DNA of 64,000 bases from Metaphire vulgaris (lineage: Eukaryota > Annelida > Clitellata > Crassiclitellata > Megascolecidae). The stretch is taken from positions 3,384,001 through 3,448,000 of the forward strand of contig CM030870.1 of the NCBI GenBank assembly GCA_018105865.1. The letters are read 5' to 3'. The notes below the pieces were generated by a model, which was not told the origin of the DNA, searched no databases, and saw only the letters and a list, made by a program, of their open reading frames with translations. A program made the translations under genes and the position numbers. This document shows positions 6,203-60,041 of the stretch, in pieces (position 1 is the first letter of the stretch; every line of letters begins with the position of its first letter).

Positions 6203-9200
6203 TTATATATTGAATTTGATTTTTTCGCAGGTGTATATTAAAGAACGTCTTGATAATTTCGCATGATGTCTCCATTCAATTGCTTTATCCTCTATGATAT
6301 TCTTCAATGGAATACATCTAACGTCGTCTCTACAGACCCACTGTACTTCTCCATCGGCATCAGTTGTATCAATTCCGCCTCCAATAACAAATATTTGATC
6401 ATTCTCAATGATCATTCCGAAGTGATCGACTTCAGTTTTAATTTGACGTCTTTCTTGCCAAGTCCTCGTTTCAAGATCATACAAGAAGCAGTCGTCGCAA
6501 CCTAGTAAAACGAAAGTCTTTCCAAACAATGCAGCCCGCATGAGAAAGGATGCTCTGGGCATTGAACGGGAAAGCAAAGTACAAGTGTTTGATTTTGTAT
6601 CGTATACTTGAACTTCACTCACGGCCTCATTGTGATCGTTATATCCACCAAATATATAGAGAGACGATTTGAGGGGAACACAATTGCCTGAACTATACAC
6701 ACAGTGAACCAATTTACCAACAGATGAACAGCGATCGTTGATTGCGTCGTATGCTTCAACGTCATCGAGTAGGCCTACTCTTCCTGTGAAATTAACGTAT
6801 CCGCCGCATATGTACAGAAACTGATCAACAAACGCCACACTGTGTCGTTCTCTACCTTTGACCAAAGAAGCGCATTTCCGCCACTTATTGAAGATAGCAT
6901 CGAACTTCCAGATTTCGTCTTTATTATATCCTATTCCAGTGATATAGATTATATTGCTGTAAACAGCGGATGCAGTTTCAACTTCCATGTCAGTTGGGAT
7001 TTTCTGCAAGGACGAAACGTCATCAGATCGATGAAGATTTATTTTAATAACATCTTCAAAGACCGAAGTCCCATCATCAGAATCTCCGAGAACAATGGCA
7101 TAGCTTACCAGTCTTTTGGTCAAGTCTAAATAAAGGACTGAAATATATAAATAGCTACACTTTGTTGTAATTGAAGTGGCACCATTTTAGAAATCAATAT
7201 AACTTCAAAATATTTTACCCAGAATTTATAAAATTTAATCCACATTAAATTTTTATTCGACACAAAATATGCAAATTTGAACAAAATCAATCTTACAGTT
7301 TACGAGATACTAATTTCTTAAATAGTTGAACCAAAAAATGCAAGTTTCCGCAAAGAGTCAAATCACTGGCCGAGATGACTTTCTTAACTAGTGCAGAAAG
7401 GATTAAAAATGATATTAATTTCAACGAAAATTTAATTAGAGGCCATTTATTTCCTAAAAGTCTAGCAGAACTAGCTGGATAAGTTAGTTTCAAAGCTTAA
7501 ATTGAGTGTGTCGTTGATAATGACTGCAGACAGAAGGATCTGCATTATCGGATATAGGATATCGTTATGGGATATGTATGGAATGATTATGTTGTCCTTA
7601 GTCATAGATTATAGCGGAAGAGCGCCACACGCATACACATGCATACACACGCATACACACACTCATATATATATATATCGTCATCAGTCTCCTCCAAAAT
7701 AGAGGACGGGAACATAAGGGCTGCCGTCAGAATCCTGCTGTCAGATGAAGAACCGATCACCCCTGACACTCAGACCTACCAGGAGCCAATCCACCCAGAA
7801 ACGCTCGGGACTATCCCAGAAACGATATATATATATATGTATGTGTGTGTGATTATACTTGACTTATAACCTTTTCTACCTAGGACCTACACGAGAGCTG
7901 ATAGGTCTATGTGTGTTTCTTGTCTTCGATCACTTTTTTGTCACAAATCAAAACATCAACAAATGTGTTCCAAAAAGAACAAACGCCTAGTTCCTACCTG
8001 AAATTTAATTTAGGGTTATCTTTCCATATTGTTTTCAAATTATATTTTAATTTGTAATAATTATTCAGAAATAATGAATTCAGCCTATATTTTGGACAAA
8101 TTATTCAATAAACTGAGAGCGTAAGAAATACTATAATGCTTCAACCTCCTGACACCTTTTTGTAATAAGTCATTCAGGAACTTAGTATGGATGCAATTGA
8201 AGCATGTGCGACGTTTGGTTTCGATCTTAAAGAATAATGCTTCGATAATATGATTGTCGCTAGACGTTTCGGTTCTTTTAATGAATAAATTTTAACCTGA
8301 AAACATCAAAATTTATTTTAATTTATAATATTGTCGAAATTATGTTGCTCCCTTAGGAAGTCGATGTAGTCGTTATCTGCCGCCTCAGGATTGCACAAAA
8401 CTTGATGTGGGTTTTTAGGTGTCGTTTAGCGCTGCGTTAATTGAAACTCATTATATAAATAGGCAATATATGCATATATAAATTATATATATATAGGCTG
8501 CTAGAATAATAGATCGTAAAAAACAGTAGTCCATTTGAGTTATCAGCAAACTTAAAATTCGGCAAAAGCATAACTTTAGATTGCGATGAAGCTTTTGCTG
8601 AATCACATAAGATTCTTTTCATCAACAAATTTTCTGGTTCTTCTTTATGCGATGTAACCTATTAGCAATTTATCATATAAACATTTGTCATATAAAAATC
8701 TATCATATAAAAATTAAATCGCGTGATTCATACCTTCTATTTGGCCAATAACATTGAACCTCCGATTGAGATCATTTGGTTCAGTTGCCCTGAATTTGAT
8801 TTCAATAGCAGAGTCAGGCCGACTAAAATATTCAGCATTTTCTTTCTCCAAATGATCTGATCTTCTGATTAAGCCGTCGACAGAGCTACAAATATCAGTG
8901 GGTGAGCCTTTTGATTTGATCTCAGAACAATAGGCTTCAAAACTTTTCAGAATTGTCATCTTTCGTTCAATTTCCTCAACTTCTGTTTCCAAATTTTTCA
9001 AATGTCTTTGCTTTAGAGAGGAAAGTTTATTAAAAACAACTTGCGTGTGTTCATTAATCATTGCCTTTAGCTGTTGATTTTTCAGTCGAACGGCATTTTC
9101 TATTTCAGAAGCCTGTTCCAAAAGGTTCGTCTTCTTACTTTCCATCTTACTTTTCTCTGCTTCCAATTGTGAAATGTAATGAAGCATCTTTGTCGAACTA

Positions 9201-9847
9201 TTTTCGAGGCTTTTGCGGAAGTCTTTGTCAACTGTGGTTACGTCTTTGCAGCTGTGCGATGTATGCTTCTCAACAAAACAGGAGACACAAACGACTGTCT
9301 TGCAGTCTCCACAGTAGTAGCTGAGCACTTGAAGGGGGTGGTTTGGACAGCTTGGAGGAGGTAAAACCATTAGAATCTCTTCTTCGCTAAGATTTCCTTT
9401 CACTACAACAATTCTGTGTGCTTGGGTGAACTTGTTATATTTGTGGAGATTGGCACAGCGTTCACAAAATGTTTCGCGGCATTCCAAGCATTTCATTGTG
9501 ACTTCACTCGCATCCTTTTGTGCATCTATAATTTTACACATTTTACAACGTTGACATGTTGTTTCTTCATTGAAATTTTGCATTATTTCCAGCATATTTG
9601 CAATGAAAAAATTCTTTTGCAATCCAGTCATTCCTGGCGGTGGAATTGTGAACTCGTTTCTACACACTGGACAAGGTATGACATCGCCTGGTTTCTTTCT
9701 GTTATTCTTTTGAATATTCTCGAGGCACCTAAGACATGCAGAATGAATGCATGGCAACATTCTTGGATCCGTGAAAGGCATTAGACAGATGCAACATTCT
9801 GTCAGGCGACGAAGTTCGCTCAGTACTTTGTTATCTTTAGCTGCCAT
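6203..9847 (-). CDS. TRIM-Kelch gene A: RING, B-box 1, B-box 2, coiled coil, Kelch propeller
   Basis: Two exons, 9847-8734 and 7125-6203, are joined by a phase-1 GT-AG intron of 1608 bp, giving about 678 residues. Exon 1 starts at MAAKDNK with a good context (ACCATGG). It holds a C3HC4 RING at about residues 18-62 (CCIC, CIH, CPVC), B-box 1 at about 101-144, B-box 2 at about 166-197 (CPNH, then CGDC, CVSC), and a charged coiled-coil region to about 340. Exon 2 begins after TTTATTTAG and encodes about six Kelch blades, with GG pairs in ICGGY, IFGGY and VIGGG. The RING implies ubiquitin ligase activity; the propeller should bind the target. The gene is intact as read. Its intron is two to three times longer than in the other copies and holds LINE and microsatellite sequence. 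Function is inferred from domains only; the target is unknown. Confidence 0.88.
7126..8733 (-). other. Intron of gene A with LINE scrap and microsatellites
   Basis: The donor is GAAG|GTATGA and the acceptor TTTATTTAG|AC on the minus strand. At about 7690-7830 the plus strand encodes KIEDGNIRAAVRILLSDEEP, a motif upstream of the reverse transcriptase in several LINE families. CA/TA microsatellites flank it (7626-7680 and 7826-7855). Another TA-rich stretch lies at 8450-8500. I see no other exon in it. Confidence 0.7.
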
Positions 9848-13455: not shown

Positions 13456-14280
13456 GATAAAATGGGTTCGTGAATTCGGAGCCAGTAGAACTTATCCCTG
13501 AAAAGAGACGTAACGTGATCATTCCGGCGACATCCAACAATCGGTTCAGCTGGGTATCTGGAAGGCCGAATAAGACACCGTAGCAGTAGACAATTCGAAA
13601 AAGGGAGAAAATGTTTTGATTCTGTAGTTGGTAATTGCTAATCCGCTATTTAACCAAATTGTTTCAATCAACTTTCTTGTTGTCGGACTTGGCAATTTGA
13701 AAGGTACCACTTGTCTCCTCTTTTGAAAGCGTTTGCCTTAAAATTGTGTTCATTCTTATTTAACTTAAAATAGTTTTCATGTGAAAAGTAATGGACACGA
13801 GGAAGTTGAGGAAGTTTTAGACTGAAATCTGTAAAGAAATCAGAAATGCTTCATACATAAAAGTAACTCCTCGAATGAAATTCCAAGAGGAAATCTAAAC
13901 GTTTTTGCGCGTGTTTGTATTTCTAATGAGGCCAAAGTTGAATGAGAAGTCTTGTAGAGGCTAATTCAAAGACGACTATGGGGTCAGTTCGAATAGTTTT
14001 CGTTGGTGGTGGTCAACATCTAGAGGGGCGTAACCAGAACGAGTAGGGCGGCTCTCGTCCAGCAGAATTCCAACAATTTCAGCGCCGAACCTCCTCCTAT
14101 GCTATAGATCTGTGTGGAACGCATTCACGTGCGACAGACTTAGATGCAACAGTAGCCTAATTATACGAAGTAAAACCGCGTTTGAACCACATTTATTTTA
14201 CACCAAATGCCGTCAGCTGAAGAAAGAATGAGACAAAACAATAATGCAGTAAAAAGGAACAACGCACGCAAATAATGATC

Positions 14281-14412
14281 GGTGGGTGGATGGATGGAGG
14301 TTTGGATGGAGGGATGGATGCTTAGATGTATGAATAGATGGACTGAGGGATGGACGGATATAGACGGAATAGACGGACTAATAGACGGACAGATGGACGG
14401 ATTAGAGAATCA
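14281..14412 (+). repeat. Degenerate GGAT tetranucleotide repeat
   Basis: An imperfect array of GGATGGAT and GACGGAT units. The counterpart in the other arm at about 51590-51720 reads as the complementary CCATCCAT array. Confidence 0.8.
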
Positions 14413-15419
14413 ATAGATGAACATATGGATGAATGAAAGAGCTCTTCAGTGGTCACTTTACGTTGGAGGGGGGAATGTCGTTGGTGTTTATCGTGCAAGA
14501 GACTGCAAGAGGTCTTGTCTTGGTAGGCTATCTTGCGAGCGGTACGTGTCGAACAGTACTCACAGCCTGATCAAAGACCAATAGAAAGACCGACTGACAG
14601 GCATATAATGATCAAAAAACGGTGCAGGAAATACAGGAGCGACAAAAAGAAAATACTTTAATAGACTGGTTCGCACAGAGGATCTTTGTTTTAAAGTACG
14701 CACACACACAGACACACAACACGCAAGACATTAGTATTGCGTGTTGCGTTTTATGCCTACTCTTGAAAATAGAGAGTAAAATAAATTTGTTTGTTGAGGC
14801 AGTCGCGAAAATTTAGTCCATCGTTGTCAGTCATAATTTTTTAAAAATTTGAACGGATATTTTGTCTTCTCGTGTTCCTGCTTGACAGGTTATTACAGTC
14901 AGTTGAATTTTCAGGTTCTTGCTTCTTGAGCATATTATTTTGTGAAAAGATTTGGAACTATACTAAATATGAAATGGTCTGCCCACTTTGTTTATAAAGT
15001 GACAGACCAATAGACCAATTTATGGCCTAAAATAGTAAAGAGAGAGATTAAGCGACTTATTTCTGGCCGCTAAGTCTATGCCCTCACTAGCTATGTCTCA
15101 TAAAGCATAAATTTTACAGGTAACTTCATATACTGCGTTTATATGCTCCAACTGGAGTTTCAAGGTATTATTGTATTTCAGCCAAATTTTGATTTTATGG
15201 TCTAATGCCATGAACTTTTGGCTACAAACTACAGTAATGACAAAGCAAAAGCAAGCTAACTTGTATTCTGATGCAATCATCGCGAAATGTATTAGCCTAA
15301 TGCTAAATATACAGATAAATATATGTGGATTGGATACCAGTCACATTAAATAATTAATTAAAGTTGTTCCACATCAGAGCAGACACCAAATTTAATGCAG
15401 TCTTGTAACAATTTTATAC

Positions 15420-17936
15420 TCAGAGTTTGATATTTTCGCAGATGAATACTAATGAACCTCTTGATAGTTTGGCATGTTGTCGCCATTCAATTGCTTTATC
15501 CTCTATCAGATTCTTCACTGGAATACATCTGACGTCGTCTCTATAGATCCACTTTGATTTTCCACCAGCATCAGTAATATATATACCGCCTCCAAAAACA
15601 AATATTTGATCATTCTCGATGATCATACCAAAGTGACAGACTTCGCTTCTAAATTGATTTCTTTCCTGCCAAGTCCCCATATCAAGATCATACAAGAAGC
15701 ACCTGTTTCTGCCTAGTAAAATGACAGTCTTTCCAAACAATGCAGCTCGAATATGACTGGATGCCACGGGCATTGAATGAGAAAGCAGAGTACAAGTGTT
15801 TGACTTTGTATCGTATACTTGAACTCGACTCATGGCCTCGTATTTGGCACTGCTGTTTGTTCCACCGAAGAGGTAGAGAGATGATTTGTAGGGAATACAA
15901 TTGCCCGAATGCTGAACAGAGTGAACCAATTTACCAACAGATGAACAGCGATCGTTGATTGCGTCGTATGCTTCAACGTCATCGAGCGTACTTCTATCAG
16001 AATCAACATATCCGCCGCATATGTACAAAAACTGATCAACAAACGCCACACTGTGTCGTGTTCTGCCTTTGACCATAGAAGCGCATTTCTCCCAAATGTC
16101 AGATGTTGCATCGAACTTCCAGATTTCGTCTTTGTTATTTCCTAGTCCAGTGATGTAGATTGAATTGCAGTAAACAGAGGATGCAATTTCGTTCTGCGTT
16201 GCCGTTGGTATTTGTTGCAACTTATAAACCGCTTTAGGTTGACGAAGATTGACCTTAATAACATCTTTTAAGGCTAAATTGCGGCAATATCCTCCAATGA
16301 TAATGGCGGAGCTTTTTAACTTTCTCGTAGACTAAAATAATAATTTTCAGTGAACAGAGTATTAGACCTTAAATATCTGTGGCGCTACAGAGAAAGCATT
16401 AACAACTCAAAATGACATTCACCTTTCTTATCCTCTTTTATAAAAACTTGTAAATATTTCAACAGCGAAGTGAATGAATAATTATTAATAGTTAATAAAA
16501 AGAAATTCGATTGTAATATTTAGACTGTTCATCTGGACCCAGGGCATATGGCATGCTATTTTATATCGGAACTAGCAGCGATCGTCGTCAGTCATGAACG
16601 AAGTAGCTAACTAAGCAAAGTTGCTATATTGTCGTTAAGACAAGGCCTGCTAAAAATTTTCCCAGGCGCAGACGCTTAGATCGTCACAGAAATAAAATTT
16701 AATGAAGCTTATTTATTTAGTCTCTAATTTAATTAATTGTACATAAATGAACACTTCATTTTTGATGCACAGCACTCTGAGTAACTGATCAAGTGAAAGT
16801 TAAGTATTGTGATTGATACCTTTTATTTGGCCAATAACATTGATGGAACTCTCAACGAGTGCGTGTTGGTCTGTGGCTTCGAATATGACTTCAACCACGG
16901 AATCAGGTCGTTCGAGATATTTCTCATTTTCTATCTTCAATTCATCTGTTCTTCTGATTAGCCCGTCGACAAAGCTACAAACATCATTCGGAGATCCTTT
17001 GGATTTGATCTCAGAGCAATAGGCCACATAAGTTTGCAGAATTGACATCTTGAATTCAATGTCATCAATTTCGGTTTCCAGATTTTTGAAAAGTTTCTGT
17101 TTAGTACAGGAAAGTTCATTCAAAAGAAGTTTCGTGTGTTCATCAATCATTGCCTTTAGCTGTTGATTTTTCAGTCGAATTGCATTTTCTATTGCAGACG
17201 TCTGCTCCAAAATACTCGTCTTCTTAGTCTCCATCTCATTTCGCCTTGCTTTCATGTGCGCAATGTAGTGAAGCAAATTTGAGGATCTTGCCTCGATGTC
17301 TTTACGAAAGTCTTTGTCAACTGTGGTCACATCTTTGCAGTCGTGTGATTTATGCTTCTCAACAAAACAGGAGACGCAGACCACTATCTTGCAGTCTCCA
17401 CAGTAGTAGTCAAGGTTTTTGAGTGGATGGTTTGGGCATTTTGGAAGTGGTAACGCCATTAGAAACTCTTCTTCGCTAAGATTTCCTTTCACTTCAACGA
17501 TTCTGTGTGTTTCGGTAAACTTGTTATATTTGTGGAGATTGGCACAGCGTTCACAAAATGTTTCGTGGCATTCCAAGCATTTCATTGTGACTTCACTCGC
17601 ATCCTTTTGTGCATCTATAATTCTGCACATGTTGCAACGTTGAGATGTTGTTTCTTCATTTAAATTTTGGATTATTTCTAGCAGATTTGCAATGAAAAAA
17701 TTCTTCTGCAATCCAGTCATTCCTGGCGGTGGAATTGTGACCTCGTTTCTACATACTGGACAAGGTATGACATCGCCTGGTTTCTTTTTGTTCTTCGTCT
17801 GAATATCTTCGAAGCACTTGAGACATGCAGAATGAATGCATGGCAACATTCTTGGATCCGTGAAAGGCATCAGACAGATGCAACATTCTGTTAGACGACG
17901 AAGTTCGCTCAGTGCTTTGTTATCTTTAGTTTCCAT
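15420..17936 (-). pseudogene. TRIM-Kelch gene B: intact RING/B-box/coiled-coil exon, Kelch exon out of frame
   Basis: Exon 1 (17936-16820) encodes METKDNK, then a C3HC4 RING, both B-boxes and the coiled coil, with the same length as gene D (1117 bp). An upstream in-frame Met at 17966 exists but is not shared by the paralogs. Exon 2 (16331-15420) encodes a full Kelch domain without stops. The acceptor reads TTTTAG|TCTACG where gene D reads TTTAG|AGTCTACG, so two bases are missing. Splicing there gives a frame that stops after about 25 codons (total coding length 2029, not a multiple of three). If expressed, it would make a TRIM protein without Kelch, about 375-400 residues. Cryptic splicing could rescue it, but I see no AG that restores frame. 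The gene may be recently broken rather than old, because both exons are otherwise open. Confidence 0.8.
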
Positions 17937-18070
17937 GCTATAAATTTCTCTTTGTTGGCAATTCAACTGGTAAAACTCGTCTGAAGATTTGAATGTTAAA
18001 ATTTGCGCCAGCGACTTTGCATGTATACAGTAGAAGAGATTTATGAAACTTTGACCCGTCGTTTCTTCAG
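17937..18070 (-). promoter_or_regulatory. Conserved 5' leader of gene B
   Basis: The leader shares with genes A and D the order TTTCATAAATCTCTTCTACTG, TATACATGCAAAG, GCGCAAATTTTAACATTCAA and ATTGCCAACAAA before the start codon. It is probably 5' UTR and core promoter. Confidence 0.45.
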
Positions 18071-18314
18071 AAGCCTTTCGAATTCTGTAAAAAGTGAAAG
18101 AGTTTATGTTCAGGTTTGTTTAATTTAGCGAAATAATTTAAAAATTGCAACCAGGGGCGCAAACCCCACTATGTCCCTCATGTCCTGACATGGGTAACTT
18201 TTGCAGTGCCGTATTAACCATGGCGCAACAGGCGCACCTGCGCCAGGCCCACTGGTTCAATTTTTCGTTATTTTAAAAAATAAACAGATTATATTAAATC
18301 ATGAACACTGAATT

Positions 18315-18584: not shown

Positions 18585-18834
18585 ACACTGAATTTTAATA
18601 AAACCACTGTACTAAAAACGTCGGTAAACGCCAAGATTAGCTCAAAATAATTAATAATAATTGCAATAGATCTTGTTCAGTAGTTTTAATTTCTTGCGTC
18701 ATGTGACAATGTGAATTGTACCCAAGGTCTTCGCTGTTTCCGTGTTAAGTCTGATTTTCCGGTGAGTTAGTCCTGTTATCGTTAAGATGAACACGTTAAT
18801 TTTCTTATTGTTATCAATCAATCATAACCAGCAT

Positions 18835-20026
18835 CAGGAACGTAGCTAGGCATGGGCTTGGGGGGTTCAAGCCCCCCAAACCTGAAGCCAGCCCACCAAA
18901 TGAATTCAAGCCCAGATGACCTTGCGGGCTCAAACGTTTGTTTGTTCACAAGAATCGTACATTGGATATTGAAAAGCTCATAAACACCTTTGCTGAGTGA
19001 CTGGATAGACGAACAAAGTTCTATTAAATGTAGTGCTATATATTTGAGACCAGAAGCAATAGCACAAGTTCTAAAATGAACAATGATTGATAAGCTAGTA
19101 TTGGATGCCTGTTAATTGCTATGGCTTAACTAGCCTACTACATTAGCAATTTAGTTGCTAATGTAATGTATACTTTTTCTTGTTTTTTGTCACTTGTGAG
19201 TTGTGACACTGAATAGATTTACAGCGATTTTAAACAAGATTTGATTTAGCAGTAGCATTTGCCACGTGACTCTTACTCTTAGTAACATTGACACTAGTAT
19301 GGGCCAAAGACAAGTAATTTTTGACTTAACACGCACATAATTGAAGTAGAATTATTTGAAATTTACTTAAACATAAGAAATTACAGACATGGAACATATT
19401 GATACAACAACTGTGATTTTGTGTCCAAAATGCTCTAAAACACACGTACGAGCATCTACGACTTCAAAAATCTTCGGAAGATAAACCCCGGACCTCCACT
19501 CCGAGAGAGGCCGCGCTAAACGCGGCCGGGGAGGGAGCGTGTAACGCAAGAGATGAGAGGGAAGCAGGGTTATTTATAGGAGTATCAATTTGGGGGTTCG
19601 GTATATTCTGGGGGTCTCGGTCCCTGCTTAAAAAGTCTGACAAACAAAAAAGTCATCCGCGGCTCAGCACAGATTGTCTCCTGCTGAAAAGTCTGACAAA
19701 AAAGCATCCCTGGCTCAGATTGAGGGGGCGTTAGGGATGCCAGTCTCAGATTGGGGGATATCTTTGGAAGGAAGGAGGGGACGCAGCAGTGGCGGCTCCA
19801 CCGGGGGGGGCCAGGGGGGCCCGTGCCCCCTATTGAGAGCCTGGCCCCAGTGGCCCCCAGTTGGGACCCTATACTTAATGCTACATACATTAAACAACAA
19901 ATGGTTGGCCCCCATGATTAGAAGTTGCCCCCCCAACGGCCCCACTTGCCAAATCCTAGAGCCGCCACTGGGACGCAGGGGAATCTTGGGCTTCAGCCCC
20001 CACATAAAATTCTGGTTACGTCCCTG
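18835..20026. mobile_element. hAT-like element, 1.19 kb, perfect 8-bp target duplication, empty site in the other arm
   Basis: ACCAGCAT occurs at 18827-18834 and 20027-20034. The inverted ends are CAGGAACGTAGC and, from the right, CAGGGACGTAACC. The D arm runs straight through this position at about 47478-47500. Inside is a second hAT MITE (19787-19970). No intact transposase is present. Confidence 0.88.
19787..19970. mobile_element. hAT MITE (CAGTGGCGGCTCCA ends) nested in the 18835 element
   Basis: GGACGCAG stands on both sides (19779-19786 and 19971-19978). The ends are CAGTGGCGGCTCCA and TAGAGCCGCCACTG. A second member is at 37893-38081. Confidence 0.88.
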
Positions 20027-20132
20027 ACCAGCATGCTTGTCCGTAATCCATATACAATCAGTTAATCGGTTTCTTCAAAGTCAGAGAAAATATATTTCTC
20101 ACGTCACTCTTATAAGGGAACACCTAGTTGAA

Positions 20133-20331: not shown

Positions 20332-20539
20332 CTGTTGAACCAGGCAGCTCTTAAGAAATCATGCTACATAGACGCCGATGAACGATAACGCTCGGAGACC
20401 AGTGTTTGAAATCTATAAGTACTGTTTAATTGAAATCTAAGTTACATAGTATCGTAATGTAGTATTATGTAGCTGCTTATTAATTCTTTAACTTAATAAA
20501 AATCTCTGAGGAAATGCTTAGCTCAAAAGTAGAATGAAG

Positions 20540-25495: not shown

Positions 25496-34884
<9,389 letters not shown>

Positions 34885-39648: not shown

Positions 39649-42191
39649 ATGGCAACTAAAGATAAGAAAGCATTGAGCGAACTTCGTCGTCTAACAGAAT
39701 GTTGCATCTGTCTGATGCCTTTCACGGATCCAAGAATGTTGCCGTGCATTCATTCTGCGTGTCTCCAATGCTTCGAAGATATTCAGACAAAGAACAGAAA
39801 GAAATCAGGCGACGTCATACCTTGTCCAGTGTGTAGAAAGGAATTCACTATTCCACCGACAGGAATGAGTGGATTGCAAAAGAATTTTGTTGTTGAAAAT
39901 CTCCTTGAAATAACAGAAAACTTTAATGAAGAAGCAACATCTCAGCACTGTCCGAATCATCCTCTTCAAGTACTTGATTACTATTGTATAGATTGCAAGA
40001 CGGTTGTCTGTGTCTATTGCTTTGTTGAGAAGCATAAATCACACGACTGTAAAGATGTGACCGCAGTTGATAAAGACTTACGCAAAAGCCTCGAAACAAG
40101 CTCCTCGAGGATGCTGCATTACATTGCACAAATGGAAGAAAAGAGGAGTAAGATGGAAGCTAAGAAGAGGAATTTTTTAGAGCAGACATCTGAAATAGAA
40201 AATGCCATTCGACTGAGAAATCAACAGCTAAAGGCATTGGTTGATCAACATACACAACTGGTCTTGAATGACCTTTACTCTTCCAGGCAGCAGCATTTGA
40301 AAACCATCGAAACAGAAATTGAAGAGATTGAAAGACAGATGGCACTACTGCAAAGTTTTGAAACATATTGTTCTGAGATAAGATTCAAAGGTTCTCCGAC
40401 TGATGTTTGTAGCTGCGTGGATGGATTAATAAGAAGATCAGAAGAATTGAAAAAAGAGAATGACGAATATCTCAGTCGACCTGATTCTTCTGTAGTTAAA
40501 GTCAAATTCAATGCAACAGATCAAAATGTACTCATCCGGAGTTCAGGCAATGTTATTGGCCAAATAGAAGGTATGAATTACACGAAAGCATTTCGAATTC
40601 TTGCTTAATTTGAATTCTTTTACTTTTCAGCAAAATACTATTAATTATACATTTTCTAATGATGTTAGATTTCTTGAGTTAAATTTTACTCATATAACAT
40701 TCATTTTGTATTTATTTTATTTTACATTTTCTTTATTAAGTTTTAATAATTTAATTTTTATCAATAGAATTTGTCTTTGGTGTAGTACCAAATTTATACT
40801 GCAGTTACAAAGTTACAATCTAAAATGTGCGGCAAATTGCAGCTGGCATATCTCTAGATATTCCTTCGTCAGTCGACTCATAACTCCTAATTAGTTCAAT
40901 TCTTAGTTTTCATAGACTTGCGAAGACTTAGTCTCGCATGTCCGACGCGATACAACATGTGCGTTAAAACCGCGATTTAAAAAATTAATCGTTTTACATC
41001 TCTATAAAAGAGTGATTTTTATGTGATTGGTTCTGTAGGTATTTGCACAAATTTAAATCAAACAATACGTGCAACTCAATTATTTGTCCAACGAAGATCA
41101 CGTTAATGATTAAAAGTTAATCTTAAGCTAACTATTGTCGTTCTAGCAATTTGCAATTTGCTGCAAACCTTTATTTAGAATCCACAGAACGGGAGAAGGG
41201 CTACGCCATAGCCGTCGAAAGATCAGATGATGGGAGTCCAGAAAGATTAAAGAGATATGCCAGTGTGGGATCAGATGATGGGAGCCCAGAAAGAGTAAAG
41301 AGGTATGCCATTGTCATTGGAGGATATGACGCCAAGTCAGTCTTTGGCGATGTCGCTATTATAAATCTCCATCGACCTGACGAAGTTTTGCTCTCACAGA
41401 AATTGCCAACCGCAATGCAATACGGCTCTGCATCCGCTGTTTACGGCAATTCAATCTATATCACTGGACTAGGAAAAAATACGGATGACGAAATCTGGAG
41501 GTTTGACGCAATATCTAAGAGATGGAAGAAATGCGCTTCCTTGGTCAAAGGCAGAAGACGACACAGTGTGGCGTTTGTTGATCAGTTTCTGTACATATGC
41601 GGCGGTTACGTTAATTTCACAGGAAGCGTTCTCGATGACGTTGAAGCTTACGACGCAATCAACGATTGTTGTTCATCTGTTGGCAAATTAGTTCACTGTG
41701 TGTTTAATTGAAGCAATTGTGTTCCCTTCAATTCGTGTCTCTATATATTTGGTGGATCTAACGCGCGCAATAAGGCCATGAGTCACGTTCAAGTATACGA
41801 CACAAAGTCAAACACTTGTAGTCTTCTATCCCAATCAATGCCCATACCATGCAGCTACATGCGATCTGCATTGTTTGGAAAGACTTTCGTTTTACTTGGC
41901 TGCGACGGCTGTTTCTTGTATGATCTCGAATCAGGGACTTGGCAGGAAAGACGTCAATTTAAAACTGAAGTCTATCACTTTGGAATGATCATTGAGAATG
42001 GTCAAATATTTGTTATTGGAGGTGGAATGGATACACTTGATGGAAAGTCTACGTGGACCTATAGCGACGACGTCAGGTGCATCCCAATGAAAAATATCCT
42101 AGAGAATAGAGCAATTAAATGGAGAAATTATGCTAAACTATCAAGACGGTCATTGGTATTCACCTGCGAAAAGATCAATTTTGAGACATAA
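39649..42191 (+). pseudogene. TRIM-Kelch gene C: RING, B-box 2, coiled coil, Kelch with an in-frame stop
   Basis: Exon 1 (39649-40570) encodes MATKDKKALSEL, a C3HC4 RING with all ligands, one B-box of type 2 (HCPNHP through HKSHDC), and the coiled coil. The whole B-box 1 is gone: the frame passes from EEATSQ straight to HCPNHP, about 66 residues shorter than gene D. Exon 2 (41179-42191) follows TTTATTTAG, phase 1, with a 608-bp intron. It starts with a 48-bp tandem duplication (RSDDGSPERLKRYA and GSDDGSPERVKRYA). In blade four a TGA at 41709-41711 stands where the paralogs have Ser, Gly or Ala; the frame is open on both sides (644 residues with one stop). As read, the product ends partway through the propeller. 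A sequencing error or allele is possible. Confidence 0.82.
40609..41178 (+). other. Intron of gene C (within 40571-41178)
   Basis: The donor is GAAG|GTATGA and the acceptor TTTATTTAG|AATCCACAGA. AT-rich; I see no other element inside. Confidence 0.75.
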
Positions 42192-46703: not shown

Positions 46704-46705
46704 TC

Positions 46706-46972
46706 CAGGGCTTTTTTGTAAAAAAAACTATTTTCCGGAACGCAATAGTCAGAAGCCAATTGTCAACATGACGAAGTGGCCAAACAGTTACTATAATGAT
46801 TATTATCAATACAACATAAATTTACACATAGGAAATTTAGAACTAAATCGGTTGTAATTTTTCTATTTATGAATTTAATATTGACAAAAATACCAGTCTT
46901 CAGATTTTCCGGAACGCCGTTCATATTTTCCGAAACGCCGCTCCGCCTCGTTCCGGCTCAAAAAAGCCCTGC
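46706..46972. mobile_element. hAT MITE with perfect 8-bp target duplication (CTTCATTC), D arm only
   Basis: CTTCATTC is at 46698-46705 and 46973-46980. The ends are CAGGGCTTTTTTG and CAAAAAAGCCCTG. The B arm at about 20530-20540 carries the single uninterrupted target. Confidence 0.9.
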
Positions 46973-47186
46973 TTCATTCTACTTTTGGGCTAGGCATTTA
47001 CTCAGAGATTTTTTATTAAGTTAAGGAATTAATAATCAGCTACATAATAGGGCCTAATACATTACGATACTAGGTAACTTAAATTTCAATTAAACAGTAC
47101 TTATAGATTTCAAACACTGTTTCCGAGCTATATCGTTCGTCGGCGTTTATGTAGCATGATTTCTTAAGAGCTGCCTGGTTCAACCG

Positions 47187-47381
47187 CAGTGGCGTAGCGA
47201 GGGTATCCTGCGCACTGGGGCGACGTGTAACGATGGCGCCTCAACTTCCAAAAATCCCTGACGAGCAAGAAAGTCTTCGCTTATTTATTTTACTAACCCA
47301 ATCCCGATTTTGGCACCTCTGCCACCTCGGCGCCCGGGTGCGGCAGCTGCGGCTGCCTCCCCGCCCATCGCTACGCCACTG
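47187..47381. mobile_element. hAT MITE (CAGTGGCGTAGCGA ends), shared by both arms
   Basis: Ends CAGTGGCGTAGCGAGGG and CATCGCTACGCCACTG, flanked by TTCAACCG and TTCAACAG (7 of 8). It is the inverted counterpart of 20133-20331. Confidence 0.87.
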
Positions 47382-47964
47382 TTCAACAGGCCGTTCCCTT
47401 TTAAGAGTGACGTGAGAAATATATTTCTATGACTTTGAAGAAACCGATTAACTGATTGTATATGGATTACGGACAAGAATGCTGGACTGCTGGTTATGAT
47501 TGATTGATAACATTAAGGAAAATAACGTATTCATCTTAACGATAACGGGACTAACTCGTCGGAAAATCATACTTAACACGGAAACAACGAAGACCTTGGT
47601 TAAACTTCACATTGTCACATGACGCAAGAAATTAAAACTACTGAACAAGATCTATTGCAATTATTATTACTTATTTTGCGCTAATCTTGGCGTTTACCGA
47701 AGTTTTTAGTACAGCGGTTTTCTTATAATTCAGTGTTCGTGATCTAATATAATCTGTTTGTTTTTTAAAATAACAAAAAATTGAACCAGTGGACCTTGGG
47801 CAGGTGCGCCTGTTGCGCCATGGTTAATACGGCACTGCAAAAGATACCCATGTCTGGACATGAAGGACATAGTGGGGTTTGCGCCCCCGGTTGCAATTTT
47901 TTAATTATTTCGCTAAATGACGCAAATCTGTACATAAACTCTTTCACTTTTCACAGAATTCGAA

Positions 47965-48100
47965 AGGCTTCTGAAGAAACGGGGTGTCAAAGTTTCATAA
48001 ATCTTTTCTACTGTATACAGGCAAAGTCATTGGCGCAAATTTTAACATTCAAATCTTCAGAAGAGTTTTACAGAATTGCCAACAAACAGAAATTCAGACC
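47965..48100 (+). promoter_or_regulatory. Conserved 5' leader of gene D
   Basis: Shares with genes A and B the sequence AGTTTCATAAATCTTTTCTA, GGCGCAAATTTTAACATTCA and ATTGCCAACAAACAGAAATT before the start. An upstream in-frame ATG at 47984 exists, but it is not conserved in the paralogs, so translation probably begins at 48101. Confidence 0.5.
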
Positions 48101-50620
48101 ATGGCAGCTAAAGATAACAAAGCACTGAGCGAACTTCGTCGTCTAACAGAATGCTGCATCTGTCTGATGCCTTTCACGGATCCAAGAATGTTGCCATGCA
48201 TTCATTCTGCATGTCTCAAGTGCCTCGAAGATATTCAGACGAAGAACAAAAAGAAACCAGGCGATGTCATACCTTGTCCAGTATGTAGAAACGACGTCAC
48301 AATTCCACCGCCAGGAATGAACGGATTGCAACAGAATTTTTTCATTACAAATCTGCTGGAAATAATGCAAAATTTAAATGAAGAAACAGCATCTCAACGT
48401 TGCAAAATGTGCAGAATTATAGATGCACAAAAGGATGCGAGTGAAGTCACAATGAAATGCTTGGAATGCCACGAAACATTTTGTGAACGCTGTGCCAATG
48501 TCCACAAATATAGCAAGTTTGCCCAAACACACAGAATCGTTGAAGTGAAAGGGAATCTTAGCGAAGAAGAGATTCGAGAGGTACTACCACTTCCAAAATG
48601 TCCAAACCATCCACTCAAAGACCTTGACTACTACTGCGGAGATTGCAAAGCAGTGGTTTGTGTCTCCTGTTTTGTGGAGAAGCATAAATCACACGACTGC
48701 AAAGATGTGACCACAGTTGACAAAGACTTTCGCAAAGACATAGAAGTAAGATCCTCAAATTTGCTTCACTACATTGCGCAAATGGAAGCAAAGCGTAGTA
48801 AGATGGAGACTAACAAAACGAGTCTTTTGGAGCAGACGTCTGCAATAGAAAATGCAATTCGACTGAAAAATCAACAGCTAAAGGCAATGATTGATGAACA
48901 CACGCAACTTCTTTTGAATGAACTTTATTCTACTAAACAGAAACTTTTCAAAAATCTGGAAACAGAAATTGATGACAATGAAATCAAGATGTCAATACTG
49001 CAAACTTATGTGGCCTATTGCTCTGAGATCATATCCAAAGGATCTCCGAATGATGTTTGTAGCTTTGTCGACGGGCTAATCAGAAGATCAGATGAATTGA
49101 AGATAGAAAATGAGAAATATCTCGATCGACCTGATTCCGTGGTTGAAGTCATATTCAAAGCCACGGAACAACACGAACTCATTGAGAGTTCCAGCAATGT
49201 TATTGGCCAAATAAAAGGTATCAATTACAATACTTAACTTTCACTTGATCAGTTACTCAGAGTGCAGTGCATCAAAAATGAAGTATTCAATTAGGCATAA
49301 TTAATTAAATTAGAGATTAAATAAATAAGCTTAATTAAGTTTTATTTCTGTGGCGATCTAAGCGTCTGCGCTAGGAATATTTTTATCACGCAACGTCTTT
49401 AACGACAATATAGCAACTTTGCTTAGTTAGCTACTTCGTTCATGACTGACGTCGATCGCTGTTGGCTCAGATATAAATTAGCATGCCATATGACATAGGT
49501 CTAGCTGAACAGTCTAAATATTACAATAAAATTTCTGTTTACATGCGAACTATTAATTATTCATTCACTTCGCTGTTGAAATATCTATAAGGTTTTATAA
49601 GATAGAATAAGAAACCTGAATGCCATTTTGATTTGTTAATACTTTCTCTGTAGCACCACAGATATTTAAGGTCTAATACTCTGTTTACTGAAAATTATTA
49701 ATTTAGAGTCTACGAGAAAATTAAAAAGCTCCGCCATTATCATTGGAGGATACGACGGCAATTTAGCCTTAAACGATGTTACTAAGGTAAATCTTCATCA
49801 GCCTGAAGATGTTTCTAGATTACAACAAATGCCAACTACAATGCAACCGCAATGTGCATCCGCTGTTTACTGCAATTCATTCTACGTCGCTGGAATAGGA
49901 AATAACAAAGACGAAATCTGGAAGTTCGATGCAACATCTGATATTTGGGAGAAATGCGCTTCTATGGTCAAAGGCAGAAGACGACACAGTGTGGCTTTTG
50001 TTGATCAGGTTTTGTACATATGCGGAGGATATGTTGATTTTGATCGATGTACACTCGATGACGTTGAAGCATACGACGCAATCAACAATCGTTGTTCATT
50101 TGTTGGTAAATTAGTTCACTGTGTTCAGAATTCAGGCAATTGTGTTCCCTTCGAATCGTCTCTCTACATCTTTGGTGGTGCAAACGCCAATAATGAGGCC
50201 ATAAGGCATGTTCAAGTATACGATACAGAATTAAACACCTGTACTTTGCTCTCCCATTCAATGCCCACAGCACTCGGTTTCGTGCGAGCTGCATTGTTTG
50301 AGAAGACTGTCATTTTACTTGGCAAAGAAGGCTGTTCCTTGTACGATCTTGATATTGGGACTTGGCAGGAAAGAAATCAATTTAGAAGCGAAGTCAGTCA
50401 CTTCGGAATGATCATTGGGAACGGTCAAATGTTTGTTTTTGGAGGCGGTACAGATACAACTGATGCTGAGGGAAAAGTAAAATGGACCTGTAGAGACGAC
50501 GTCATATGTATTCCAGTGAAGAATATCATGGAGGATAAAGCAATTGAATGGCGACATCATGCGAAATTATTAAGACGTTCATTAGTATTCAGCTGCGAAA
50601 ATTTTCAACTCGAAGCATAA
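48101..50620 (+). CDS. TRIM-Kelch gene D: RING, B-box 1, B-box 2, coiled coil, Kelch propeller
   Basis: Exons 48101-49217 and 49707-50620 are joined by a phase-1 intron of 489 bp (AAAG|GTATCA and AATTTAG|AGTC), giving 676 residues. The start MAAKDNK has context ACCATGG. RING ligands are C18, C21, C33, H35, C38, C41, C59 and C62. B-box 1 spans about 101-144 (C101, C104, C120, C123, C128, C131, H135, H144) and B-box 2 about 167-198 (C167, H170, C179, C182, C187, C190, H195, H198). A coiled coil follows to about 340. The Kelch region covers about 380-670, with blades marked by AIIIGGYDG, YICGGY, YIFGGA and VFGGGTD. This is the best reference copy. It is expected to be a cytosolic E3 ligase that oligomerises through the coil and binds a target through the propeller; this is inference from domains. 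Confidence 0.9.
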
Positions 50621-52429
50621 AATTGTTACAAAGCTCCATTAAATTTGGTGTCTGCTCTGATGTGGAACAACTTTAATTATTTATATAATGGGACTGGTAT
50701 CCAATCCACATACATTTATCTGTATATTTAGCATTAATATATTTTTCGATGATTGAATTAGAATACAAATTAGCTTTTTTTTCTTTGCTGTGTCATTACT
50801 GTAGTTATTAGCCAAAATGTTCATGGCATTAGACCATAAAAACAAAATTCGGCTGAAAGACAATAATATCTTGAAACTCCATTTGAAGCATATAAACCCA
50901 GTATATGAAGTTACCTGTAAAATTTAGACTTTAGGCGATCTGGATGGTGAGGGCATAGACTCAGCGGCCAGAAATAAGTCGCTTAATCTCTCCCTTTACT
51001 ATTTTAGGCCGGCTGTAACTTGATAAACAAGGTGGGCAGACCATTTCATATTTAGTATAGTTCCAAATCTTTTCACAAAATAATATGCTTAAAAAGCAAG
51101 AACCTGAAAATTCAACTGATTGTAATAACTTGTCAAGCAGGAACACGAGAAGACAAAATATCGGTTCAAATTTTTAAAAAATTATGACTGTCAACGATGC
51201 ACTAAATTTTCGCGACTGCCTCAACTAACAAAATTATTTTACTCTCTATTTTCAAGAGTAGTCATAAAACGCAGCATGCATGCGTGTTGTGTGTGTGCAT
51301 GTGTGCGTACTTTAAAACAAAGATACTTCTGTGTGAACCAGTCTATTAAAGTATTTCCTTTTCGTCGTTTTTGTATTTCTTTCACCGTTTTTCGATCATT
51401 ATATGTCCGTCAATCGGTCTATCTACTGGTGTTTGATCAGGCTGTGAGTTCGACACGTACCGCTCGAAAGATACCAACACAAGACCTCTTGCAGTCTCTT
51501 GCACAATAAACACCAGCGACATTCCCCCTACAAAGTAAAGTGACTACCGAAGACCTCTTTCATTTATCCATATGTTCATCCATTCATTCATTAATCCGTC
51601 AATCTGTCCGTCTCTCCGTCCGTCTATTTATTCATCCGCCCCTCCCTCCGTCCATCCATTCATACATCTAGGCATCCATATCTCCATCCAAACCTCCATC
51701 CATCCACCCACCGATCATTATTTACGTGCGTTGTTCCTTTTTACTTCATTATTGTTTTGTCTCATTTCTGCTTCAGCTGACGGCATTTGGTGCAAAATAA
51801 ATGTGGTTCAAACGCGGTTTTACTTTGTATACTTAGGCTACTGTTGCATCTAAGTCTGTCGCATGTGAATGCGTTTCACGCAGGTCTATAGCATAGGAGC
51901 AGGCTCGGCGCTGAAATTGTTGGAATCCTGCTGGACGAGAGCCGCCCTTCTCGTTCTGGTTACGCCCCTCTAGATGTTGACCACCACCAACGAAAACTAT
52001 TCGAACTGACCCCATAGTCGTCTTTGGATTAGCCACTACAAGACTTCTCATTCAATTTTGGCCTCATTAGAAATACAAACACGCGCAAAAACGTTTAAAT
52101 TTCCGCCTTGGAATTTCATTCCAGGAGTTACTTTTAGGTATAAAGCATTTTATATTTCTTTATAGATTTCAGTCTAAAACTTCCTCAACTTCCTCCTGTC
52201 CATTATTTTTCACATGATAAATATTGTAAGTTAAATAAGAATAAACACAATTTTAAAGCAAACGTTTTCAAAAGAGGAAACACATGTTACTTTTAAAAAT
52301 GCCTTGTCCGACAACAAGAAAGTTGATTGGAACAATTTGGTTAAATAGCGGAATAGCAAGTACCAACTTCAGAATCAAAGCATTTTGTCCTTTTCCGAAT
52401 TGACTACTGCTACAGTAGGCCTTCCAGAT

Positions 52430-52880
52430 AACCTACCCAGCTGAACCGCTTGCAGTCAATACTGAATGTATCTGTTCATCTGATTTGTGGATGTCGCCGG
52501 AATGATCCCTTTACTTTTCTCAGGGATAAGCTCTACTGGCTCCGAATTCACGAACCCATTGCATTTAAGCGATATTTTATCACCTACCGACCCTTTCTGC
52601 CCGGAATGTACCTTATCATTCGTCCCCAGATCTCCGTCGAATGATCGTCGTTCTCAGCACCGCTCCAGCAGTCTCATTCAACTACTTGTCCCTCTTTCGA
52701 TCAAAACTTCAAAGTTCGGCGACAGATCGGCTTCACGTGGAAATCCAATTGTATGGAATTCATTGCGTGAGAACGCTATAAATCTAACTCTGCCATGTCA
52801 TTCCTAAAGAACTTCAAGACTCACTCGTTCAACATCTTCTACAAACAGTAGAGTGAACATCGATATGACTTCGACGTCGT
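52430..52880 (+). mobile_element. Degraded CR1/L2-like LINE 3' fragment
   Basis: In two frames the plus strand reads LRDKLYWLRIHEPIAFKRYF, then KTSKFGDRSASRGNPIVWNS and LRENAI. It is the same family as 217-840 and 55095-55690. The B arm has the start of this fragment at about 13456-13590, cut off by the junction LINE. Confidence 0.75.
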
Positions 52881-55094: not shown

Positions 55095-55690
55095 TTATTA
55101 TTATTATTATTCGACGATTTGTGAAGCGCCGTAACATGGCCATCGGCCAAAACCAAAAGCGCTGTACAGTCAACAGTCAACTGTACGATATGGTGAACAA
55201 ATGCGTTTTCAGCTCTTTAGCAAACGTTTCAGGTGAAGTAATCCCGGCCAGCGCATCAGGGAGCGCGTTCCACAGACGTGGGTTACCGCGAGTCATAGAA
55301 CGCTCGCCAAACTTCGGAGTCCTGGCCGGAGGAGGAACGTACAGCCGGTGGCGGCTGCTAGATCTCAGCTGGAGACGGCACCCGGTCGTCGTTTGTCGTC
55401 GTACTAGGCATGCCAAGTAATCGGGACAGGCTGGGTCCCGAAGAGCACGAAAAGTTAACCAACACCGCTTGTAAACTATACGCTCCGGGACCCGAAGCCA
55501 ATGGAGCTTGTCCCTTAGCACCGGTGTAACATGGTCGTGCCACCTCAAGCCGAAAATAATCCGAGCCGAGGCATTGATGACTGCCTGAAGTCTACTGAGC
55601 TGGTTCCCAGGTAGTCCGAGAAGGAGACTGTTGCTATAATCCAGTCTTGAGAGTACCAGAGCACGGACAAGATGAATAGCGGCCGGTATT
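55095..55690 (-). mobile_element. CR1/L2-like LINE 3' fragment with ATT tail
   Basis: The minus strand encodes TPVLRDKLHWLRVPERIVYK, ALRDPACPDYLACLV, YVPPPARTPKFGERSMTRGN and PRLWNALPDALAG, ending LKTHLFTISYS and a stop. An ATT array (55096-55112) is its 3' tail. This is the best preserved copy of the family at 217-840. Confidence 0.88.
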
Positions 55691-56029
55691 GTTATATAAC
55701 GACGAACTAGATCGTTAATTGATATTTAAAGGCGTTAATTGGTCTGTAAAGAGAAGAGATGAAGGAAAATGAACATGAAACTAGATCTAAATATATTTCA
55801 AAAACATATTTAAGCGCATTTTATATAGACGTTCGTAGTCGCTTGATTTCAAAACTATGCTGCTTCAAGTCTTTAAAATATGAAAAATATTAAAGCGAAA
55901 ATATCACAATGCGGAAACCATGCATATTTTAGCGTACGGGGTGTCGTCCGCGAATGTCCGGCAATCGGGGATAGATTCACAGCGACCGAAAGCCAGCCAA
56001 ATGATATTAGGAGAGAGCGAGAGATAGTT

Positions 56030-57435: not shown

Positions 57436-60041
57436 ATGGCAGCTAAGCACAATAGACCTATGAGTGAGCTTTATCATCTGACAGAATGCTGCATCTGTCT
57501 CATGCCTTTCACCGATCCAAGAATGTTGCCATGTATTCACTCTGCATGTCTTAAATGCTTAGAAGATATTCAAACACAGAACAAAAAGAAACCAGGCGAT
57601 GTCATACCTTGTCCAGTGTGTAGGAAACAATTCCCCATTCCACCGTCCGGAATGACTGGATTGCAAAAGAATTTTTTCGTTGCGAATCTGCTGGAAATAA
57701 TGCAAAATCTCAATGAAGAGACAACATCTCAACGTTGCAAAACGTCCAAACACGGAATTCTTGAAATAAAGGACAATCTTAACAACGAGGAGACTCTAAA
57801 GGCATTTTCACCTCCGAACTGTCCAAACCATTCTCATAAAGCTCTTGACAAGTATTGTGGAGACTGCAAGACAGTCGTCTGCGTTTCCTGTTTTACCGAG
57901 AAGCATAAATCACACGACTGCAAAAATGTGGCGACAGTTGACAAAGACTTCCGCAAAGACCTCGAAAGCAGTTCTTTAAAAATTCTTCATTGTTTTGGAC
58001 AAATGGAAACAAAGCGAAGCAAGATGGAATTTAAAAAGAAGAACTTCTTAGAGCGGACAACTGAAATGGAAATTTCCATCCGACGTCAAAATCAACAGCT
58101 AAAGGCTATGATCGACCAACACACGCAACTTGTTTTGAACGAACTTTCCTCTATGAAGCAAAAACATTTGAAAAATATAGAAACCGAAATTGAAGAGGTT
58201 GAAAGACAGATGACAGTTCTGAAAAGTTTCGAGACCTATTGTTCCGAGATCAAATCCAAAGGATCTCCCACTGATGTTTGCAGCTGTGTGGATGGATTAA
58301 TCAGAAGAGCTGATGAATTGAGAAAAGAGAATGATAAATATCTTAGCCTACCTGATGATGTAGTTGAAGTCGAATTCAATGCAACTGACCACAATGTACT
58401 CATCCGGAGTTCAGGCAATGTTATTGGCAAAATAGAAGGTACGACTCCCATGATTCAATTTGCAATTGATAAGTTACTATCAGGATGCATTACAATAAGA
58501 ACGAATAATGAATTTGTTGGTTAAAAGAAACTTGCATGATTGTGCTTCATGTTAATTCAACGTGATGTTTTTGCTGAATTATGAAAGTTTGTTGATATTA
58601 TTTTTTGATTGCTTCCTTTTCTATCTGTCGTTCTCACAGAGTATGTACTGTCAAATGCGTTATAATCTTTAAACCTTTGAGAGTTCTTGGGAAATAATCT
58701 AAATATGCTGAAGAGCATGTACATTCACCAGATCAGTTGCAGGAAATTCAGTCAAAATCATTTGAAGTCATTTGCCAAAACTGGGATTCGAAATATATGC
58801 TGAATCCACGTGTACCCCATGAGAATATATGCTTATACAATGGAATGGTAGCCTAAATTAGTAGCTGTTAATATTGAACATTATTGGCATTGATGGACGA
58901 CGTCAAGCAATGAATAGAAGACACTAACTGGAATTACACGATACTCAAGTCTAGACACCATCATAGGTAGAAATGTAGCTGCATCCCCTGGAAGGCAACT
59001 TCCTATGGGTCAGAATTTGAGCCAATTTATATAAATTGGAGCAGTTACCGAAAGAAAATCACGCTATTCATTTAAATCTAGTCTTAGGTTGATTACTGTA
59101 AGCCTGACCATTTGTTATAAACTGCAATATTTTATTTAGAATCGACAGAAAGAGTGAAGAGTCATGCCATCGTCTTTGGAGGATCTGATGGGAGCTCAGT
59201 TTTTGGAGATGTCACTAAAATAAATCTTCATCACTCAGGTAACGTTTTACCCTTACAGAAAATGCCAACTCATATGCTAAACGAATCTGCAGCCGCTGCT
59301 AACAGCAACTCAATCTACATCACTGGTTTAGGAAACAAACACGCCGAAATCTGGAAGTTCGATGCAACATCTGATATTTGGGAGAAATGTGCTTCTTTGG
59401 TCAAAGGCAGAAGACGACACAGTGTGGCGTTCGTTAATAAGTTTTTGTACATATGCGGCGGATATGTTGATTCTGATAGACGCACAGTCGATGACGTTGA
59501 AGCATACGACGCAATAAACGATCGCTGTTCATCTGTTGGTAAATTGGTTCACTGTGTTCAGAGCGCAGGCAATTGTGTGGCATTCAATTCGTCTGTCTAT
59601 ATCTTCGGCGGCGTTAACGCTAGAAATGACCTAATGAGTCATGTTCAAGTATACGACACAAAGTCAAACACTTGTACTCTGCTTTCTCATTCAATGCCCG
59701 TGAAGTGTAGTCATATGCGAGCTGCATTGTTTGAAAAGACTGTCATTTTACTTGGCAGATACGACTGCTTCTTGTATGATCTTGATGCGGGATCTTGGCA
59801 GGAAAGGCGCCGATTTAAAACTGGCAACTATCACTTCGGAATGATAATTGAGAACGGTCAATTATTTGTTTTTGGAGGCGGTACAGATACAACTGGTGTT
59901 GGTGGAAAATCAAAGTGGCTTTGTAGAGACGACGTCCGATGTATTCCAGTGAAGAACCTCATGGAGGGTAAAGCAATTGAATGGCGACATCATGCGAAAT
60001 TAACAAGACGTTCATTAGTATTCGCCTGCGAAAAAATCTAA
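57436..60041 (+). CDS. TRIM-Kelch gene E: RING, B-box 2, coiled coil, Kelch propeller
   Basis: Exons 57436-58438 and 59140-60041 are joined by a phase-1 intron of 701 bp (GAAG|GTACGA and TTTATTTAG|AATCGACAGA), giving 634 residues. The start is MAAKHNRPMSEL, and the C3HC4 RING is complete. B-box 1 has been removed by an in-frame deletion of 38 codons: RCK is followed by TSKHGILEIK, where gene D has the rest of B-box 1. B-box 2 (CPNH, CGDC, CVSC, HKSHDC) and the coiled coil remain. The Kelch region has AIVFGGSDG, YICGGY, YIFGGV and VFGGGTD and ends RRSLVFACEKI. The frame is open throughout. It shares the loss of B-box 1 with gene C but has different deletion ends. Confidence 0.88.
58439..59139 (+). 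other. Intron of gene E
   Basis: Exon 1 frame stays open for about 29 codons into the intron before a stop at 58522, so intron retention would give a Kelch-less protein. No other element is visible. Confidence 0.75.

Follow-up and report, generated by a model that had tools for sequence, protein, structure and literature searches.

In the TRIM–NHL proteins (TRIM2, TRIM3 and TRIM71 type), a RING, one or two B-boxes and a coiled coil (together RBCC) precede an NHL domain, which is a six-bladed propeller. A stretch of 64,000 nucleotides from the annelid Metaphire vulgaris (the window; C39:3384001-3448000, C39 being contig CM030870.1, of an assembly totalling 728,303,522 bases) harbors five copies, A to E, of a two-exon gene with the same order of parts, but with a propeller of the Kelch rather than the NHL type. 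The finTRIM and TRIM5-type TRIM-B30.2 proteins are also expanded RBCC ligases with a variable C-terminal recognition domain; the window family has a Kelch propeller in place of their B30.2/SPRY domain. Likewise, BTB-Kelch (KLHL) proteins use a Kelch propeller as the presumed substrate receptor of a ubiquitin ligase, whereas the window family has no BTB or BACK domain and carries the RING in the same chain. Sister loci elsewhere in the genome resemble the CARD receptors (Apaf-1, NLRC and RIG-I-like) in placing CARD exons before a repeat-type recognition domain; unlike in those receptors, the sensor-like part is Kelch, and its joining to CARD is a candidate one. The loci are interpreted here as an expanded TRIM-type RBCC–Kelch family that likely serves intracellular recognition, with one arm acting as ubiquitin ligase and one arm in CARD signalling (probability roughly 0.72, as judged from sequence). 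The parts are known, and their combination, RBCC with Kelch, is new.

No TRIM–Kelch or CARD–Kelch family was found in the open-licence literature, a scope outside which most subscription papers and the domain-architecture databases lie, and an earlier sighting is possible. As far as the available portions of these sources go, few C-terminal types of TRIM exist and Kelch is not mentioned (Sardiello 2008, PMC2533329), it is equally absent from Marin 2012 (PMC3503706), and a 2022 TRIM review (PMC9583506) recognizes 11 subfamilies and names Kelch only regarding Keap1. Similarly, in the accessible parts of three further papers, a "Kelch motif containing gene" is among the genes altered by microbial patterns in a 2018 study of two sponges (PMC6208332), Kelch is not mentioned in a Halichondria panicea paper (PMC8242945), and neither Kelch nor TRIM is mentioned in the Dysidea avara genome paper (PMC12909245).

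The five copies lie in two patches of the window, and in each of them the RBCC exon (exon 1) and the propeller exon (exon 2) are ordered on one strand (minus for A and B, plus for C, D and E). An earlier interpretation made from the letters alone (the sequence-only reading) had proposed five two-exon paralogs joining RING, B-box and coiled coil to Kelch through a phase-1 intron at one position, and this is confirmed. The features are:

Copy A, exon 1: 8734..9847, minus strand; RING, B-box1, B-box2 and coiled coil; donor G|GTATG following codon GAA.
Copy A, exon 2: 6203..7125, minus strand; Kelch propeller; joined frame open.
Copy B, exon 1: 16820..17936, minus strand; RING (just under the Pfam cut-off), B-box1, B-box2 and coiled coil.
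Copy B, exon 2: 15420..16331, minus strand; Kelch propeller; open alone, out of frame with exon 1 at the acceptor.
Copy C, exon 1: 39649..40570, plus strand; RING, B-box2 and coiled coil, without B-box1.
Copy C, exon 2: 41179..42191, plus strand; Kelch propeller; one in-frame stop at 41709-41711 and a 48-bp tandem duplication at 41221-41314.
Copy D, exon 1: 48101..49217, plus strand; 372 codons plus 1 base; RING at about residues 18-62, B-box1 at 101-144, B-box2 at 167-200, coiled coil at about 205-300.
Copy D, intron: 49218..49706, plus strand; phase 1, 489 bases, GTATCA...AATTTAG, 31% GC.
Copy D, exon 2: 49707..50620, plus strand; six-bladed Kelch propeller (blades assigned by eye); joined frame open.
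Copy E, exon 1: 57436..58438, plus strand; RING, B-box2 and coiled coil, most of B-box1 missing.
Copy E, exon 2: 59140..60041, plus strand; Kelch propeller; joined frame open.
Introns of the other copies: A 1608, B 488, C 608 and E 701 bases.

The donor G|GTA occurs at one conserved place in all five copies, with the split codon in phase 1, and the acceptors end in TTTAG or TTTTAG; the splice coordinates proposed earlier for D and E (49217/49707 and 58438/59140) are exact. Once joined, the exons form uninterrupted reading frames of 678 residues in A, 676 in D and 634 in E. Frame agreement had been claimed for C as well: its frame does agree across the junction, yet exon 2 holds the in-frame stop listed above. 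The duplication near the start of this exon lengthens the link from the coiled coil to the propeller. In copy B, the joined frame contains 20 stops because the acceptor is two bases short compared with D; both exons are open singly. From its sequence, copy B is probably a pseudogene or a damaged allele, and both B and C were left out of the count of working genes.

Evidence that the two exons would form one chain comes from database relatives. A set of 5.8 billion proteins was searched in three ways: with copy D (15 matches, P0001 among them), with an eight-row profile (88 matches at E <= 1e-5, P0044 among them) and with a Kelch-weighted profile (55 matches, namely P0044 and P0001, 46 Kelch-only open reading frames of the same clade and a weaker remainder). 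The weakest Kelch-only frame of the clade is P0145 (E 6e-52), after which the next match falls to 1.7e-12. P0044 is a full RING–B-box–coiled coil–Kelch frame of 702 residues on a 2443-nt contig (99% query coverage, 43% identity), and P0001 is a frame of 558 residues, without the RING, on a 2639-nt contig. Both cross the junction in one open frame exactly where the window splice sites predict. Together with the splice anatomy, these two frames are the basis for reading the exons as one chain, and they bear out the proposed architecture, as does the recurrence of the exon pair at dozens of sites in the M. vulgaris genome.

Relatives that contain only one of the exons respect the same boundary. 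Among the exon-1-only relatives, 55 of 85 reach the junction, 54 of these 55 end within 65 residues past it (median 13), and in 48 the next residue is G, as the G|GT donor gives. P0094 is the lone exception, with 130 further residues, and the frame of P0076 runs 63 residues past the junction. Both continue into non-Kelch sequence (no Kelch by Pfam), possibly other C-terminal partners of the RBCC exon. On the other side, 22 of the 46 Kelch-only relatives extend past the acceptor, each by at most 30 residues. A more distant relative is P0098, a TRIM71-like protein of Dysidea avara with NHL and a filamin match (E 5e-28). Scans of viral-contig and genome-contig collections gave no relatives.

The short extension of exon 1 frames past the donor, 6-28 residues in the window and a median of 13 in the 55 relatives, would also suit two separate neighbours, a short TRIM without a C-terminal domain and a free Kelch protein. 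This arrangement is very unlikely, as the first in-frame ATG of exon 2 comes only at codon 41-86, so that a free Kelch protein would lack the beginning of blade 1, order and strand are constant across the listed copies in the genome, and P0044 and P0001 read straight across. Conservation also falls at the donor: identity averages 74% over the final 120 bases of exon 1 and 56% over the first intron stretch (random 51%; means over 9 copy pairs, with B-D set apart as a recent duplication).

Exon 1 of the joined gene has the composition of a TRIM protein. In line with the sequence-only reading, Pfam finds RING, zf-B_box and Kelch: zf-B_box exceeds its cut-off in all five exon 1s, and RING_UBOX does so in A, C, D and E, with B just under (24.1 vs 25.2 bits). 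A, C, D and E retain all eight ligands of the N-terminal C3HC4 RING and every B-box2 ligand, and, by eye, copy B has its RING and B-box2 ligands too. B-box1 has its full set of ligands in A and D, none in C and few in E; the lack of B-box1 in C and of most of it in E was not part of the sequence-only reading. Across the aligned relatives, 7 of the 8 RING ligand columns are invariant (85/85 or 86/86 rows) and C59 is present in 84/86; almost every row also retains the B-box2 ligands. The arginine after the last ligand, R63, occurs in 78/86 rows and is compatible with ligase activity; its position is presumably that of the RING "linchpin". The idea of a one-chain E3 ligase fits the zinc ligands and R63, with ligase activity as a prediction. 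Residues 205-300 of copy D, the putative coiled coil, contain no Pro or Gly and have a period near 3.5 (20 of 5000 shuffles are as high). The exon 1 profile match extends past the B-box into TRIM5 and TRIM28 chains, and the nearest solved structures are TRIM3, TRIM28 and TRIM2. BTB was not found in Pfam scans of exon 1 of the window copies.

Exon 2 exceeds the Pfam cut-offs for Kelch (Kelch_1/Kelch_6) in A to E and is matched by Kelch-type propeller families only (no SPRY, NHL, MATH, FN3, bromo or filamin), which upholds the claim that Kelch stands in place of the classical TRIM C-terminal domains. The nearest solved structures for its profile are the designed six-bladed SAKe, a "Kelch protein" (9tsn), KLHL2 and KLHL3, and six Kelch motifs plus a last strand can be assigned by eye in copy D. 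In KLHL proteins, the BC/DA face of the propeller binds the substrate. With strands and loops assigned by eye from the Kelch motif, variability over 52 Kelch rows is 2.32 bits in the top loops (BC+DA, n=77), 1.54 bits in the bottom loops (AB+CD, n=31) and 1.21 bits in the strands (n=186), the top loops exceeding the bottom loops at p = 1e-6.

The family extends far beyond the window. The genome was searched with exon 2 of D, keeping the best 130 of 399 first-look candidates (weakest E 1.7e-85), and with exon 1 of D, keeping the best 110 of 518; counts from such best-match lists are minimum values and favour intact copies. The genome holds at least 130 Kelch exons and at least 110 RBCC exons, and the expansion that had been suggested from the five copies is therefore far larger than claimed. 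C39 carries 47 of the 130 listed Kelch exons, between 2.85 and 6.01 Mb, and the 110 listed RBCC exons include 45 on C39 and 52 on C23. Within 10 kb of each other, listed RBCC and Kelch exons form 67 pairs in which the RBCC exon is upstream, 66 of them same-strand and 1 opposite-strand; in a further 37 same-strand pairs, of the kind that tandem arrays give, and 1 opposite-strand pair it is downstream. An upstream same-strand RBCC exon is found at 53/130 listed Kelch exons (44/47 on C39), and a listed Kelch exon lies at most 10 kb downstream of 52/110 listed RBCC exons (44/45 on C39). Twenty stretches around Kelch matches, with open frames of about 250-350 residues, were also picked by hand from the genome. 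All 20 contain a Kelch exon and 11 have an RBCC exon upstream, with the phase-1 donor at the conserved spot in 9 of the 11 (not in L016 and L027). In another of the stretches, L018, Pfam names a retroelement reverse transcriptase near a Kelch exon.

The proposal that these proteins replace the BTB-Kelch/Cul3 adaptor did not hold. In a BTB search of the genome (best 150 of 189 candidates), eight Kelch matches each lie with a BTB match in what is, judged by position and length (554-675 residues), a single open frame, among them C10:9634355, C2:9550983 and C39:6618769. Since both architectures are present, replacement is rejected, and the TRIM–Kelch family is an addition beside BTB-Kelch, an extra route. 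Of the 43 listed BTB matches at E <= 1e-15, none is on C18, C23, C46, C50, C64, C65 or C122, and among the 14 contigs that carry listed Kelch exons only 2, C39 and C28, also have listed BTB matches.

Elsewhere in the genome, Kelch exons stand behind CARD exons. Six of the 20 hand-picked stretches (L009, L013, L023, L024, L025 and L028) contain CARD exons without a full RBCC exon, and three (L010, L012 and L018) contain neither. The domain is named by Pfam, with L028 just under and L009:1320-1727 under the curated cut-off. Ten CARD exons were examined and, where edges are readable, they are of phase 1-1 (donors 8/8, clear acceptors 7/8). L023 (2935-3315, 3584-4141 and 5756-6190) and L024 (1314-1835, 2204-2566 and 6231-6668) each have three CARD exons on one strand before the Kelch exon. 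L009 and L012 also contain a B-box1-like small frame and a coiled-coil-like frame (by eye in L009, by Pfam in L012), with phase-1 donors at the L012 B-box frame and at both coil frames. The nearest solved chains for the CARD exon are weak matches, a design on the Apaf-1 CARD (E 0.009) and Apaf-1 itself (E 0.03), and neither NACHT nor helicase was found in those upstream frames that were Pfam-scanned.

Around listed Kelch exons, out to 10 kb, a genome search with one CARD exon (best 150 of 224 candidates) lists 52 upstream CARD exons on the strand of the Kelch exon and 0 on the other; downstream, the counts are 14 and 1. When the Pfam CARD list is added, 45/130 listed Kelch exons have an upstream CARD, and a single CARD is upstream but opposite in strand. 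Not one of the 53 Kelch exons linked to RBCC has a listed CARD at a distance of 10 kb or less; there is no listed CARD on C39 or C210, nor by any of the 7 RBCC-linked Kelch exons on C23, C50 and C65. It is doubtful, though less so than the separation of exons 1 and 2, that the CARD exons are merely near Kelch exons within mixed immune clusters and form no CARD–Kelch gene. Such proximity would agree with CARD–Kelch distances of several kb, with the abundance of CARD in the genome (639 first-look candidates) and with one weak CARD match upstream of the RBCC exon in L027; the strand bias of 52 to 0, the avoidance of RBCC-linked Kelch exons and the 1-1 phases, which permit direct joining, argue for CARD–Kelch genes. 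Separately, the best 150 of the 639 CARD candidates that were scored are all over the cut-off and most are not near listed Kelch exons, and CARD may be expanded in this genome beyond the Kelch-linked exons.

The propellers of the two kinds of locus are interleaved in phylogeny. In a maximum-likelihood tree of 40 Kelch rows, only 6 of them CARD-linked, RBCC- and CARD-linked propellers are mixed: the partner label changes 4 times, and well-supported forks force at least 3 of these changes; the RBCC-linked L019, for example, falls inside a 100/99 group with the CARD-linked L009. Clustering by partner label is weak against shuffles (38/500 as low). The presence of related Kelch exons behind CARD exons in the same genome suggests that both kinds of locus probably share the propeller as a recognition module, and gives a first concrete support to the earlier guess at a role in immunity. 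On the evidence at hand, the odds are even that a single lineage has taken one variable Kelch exon repertoire and repeatedly shuffled it, in phase 1, either to RBCC (bind and ubiquitinate) or to CARD (bind and signal), producing well over 100 clustered receptor-like genes.

Several observations weigh against the reading as a recognition family. At the junction, polyadenylation-like signals occur in 4 of the 5 window introns, which makes exon-1-only transcripts possible and also favours separate genes; the contrast in identity at the acceptor is weak (54% before vs 59% after, over the same 9 pairs); and P0044 and P0001 could in principle be processed retrocopies. Of the 130 listed Kelch exons, 32 have neither an RBCC nor a CARD partner within 10 kb. 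Loop variability is common among Kelch proteins generally. Counting of replacement against silent changes (dN/dS) in seven rows gives no sign of positive selection, with 0.68 (0.49-0.95) for the top loops, 0.71 for the bottom loops and 0.33 for the strands, and fewer than half of the bootstraps (46%) put the top loops above the bottom loops. Relaxed constraint therefore accounts for the loop pattern no less well than selection. Furthermore, 2 of the 5 window copies (B and C) are damaged, and 6 of the 11 RBCC loci have a broken or partial exon 1 frame (L014, L016, L017, L022, L026 and L027). Such damage is what would be seen if most of the clustered copies were duplicated pseudogenes and few genes still worked, an improbable state of affairs given that internal stops interrupt the matched span in only 9/130 listed Kelch exons (at least copy E is counted among these only because its match runs past its normal end) and in 5/115 listed exon 1 matches (frame shifts fall outside that count), and that dN/dS is below 1 in 10/10 window copy pairs for both exons.

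In the proposed mechanism, splicing through the phase-1 intron would yield an RBCC protein with a six-bladed Kelch propeller as its C-terminal substrate-binding domain. The coiled coil would pair two chains, the propellers would bind a target via their variable BC/DA face, and the RING would recruit E2 and attach ubiquitin either to the target or to the ligase, with no Cullin adaptor involved. Exon shuffling in phase 1 may exchange the propeller module between the ubiquitin-ligase arm and the CARD signalling arm. Recognition of microbes or viruses inside the cell would be the most plausible role. Both Kelch and TRIM domains have many functions outside immunity, and a real TRIM–Kelch family might act in housekeeping or self recognition (cytoskeleton, gametes or allorecognition) rather than in defence, with which a dN/dS below 1 in every pair and region counted would agree. 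We consider this the less probable option, on a par with the mere proximity of CARD exons: many dozens of clustered copies suit recognition better, variability is concentrated on the likely binding face, and sister propellers lie behind CARD exons. Taken as a whole, the interpretation offered by the sequence-only reading is partly supported.

The window has several further features. Copies B and D are contained in an inverted segmental duplication (13461-18314 vs 47727-52560) whose main block of 4.9 kb is 88.6% identical, with further blocks at 18585-23135 and 45253-47736 (91-93% identity). Silent-site divergence (dS) between B and D is higher in exon 2 (0.27) than in exon 1 (0.11), which hints at exchange with another copy. 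The duplication also carries related open frames at 20837-21280 (plus strand) and 46215-46727 (minus strand); the latter overlaps a threefold repeat of a 57-bp unit (46477-46649) and reads QTNSNAVCLINVWQIKPL repeatedly. Fragments at 355-837, 29290-29805 and 55177-55725 (all on the minus strand) are, by eye, presumably reverse-transcriptase-like. A TAC trinucleotide repeat of about 118 units (33950-34304) yields long Thr/Leu and Ser/Val open frames.

If TRIM proteins include a Kelch class, the list of their C-terminal domains, regarded as short and closed, would gain a member. Such a ligase would have its Kelch receptor built in and would not borrow one through Cullin-3 and a BTB adaptor. Should the CARD sisters prove to be real genes, two output arms would draw on one propeller repertoire, and the family would offer a natural experiment on how intracellular recognition is diversified in animals without antibodies.

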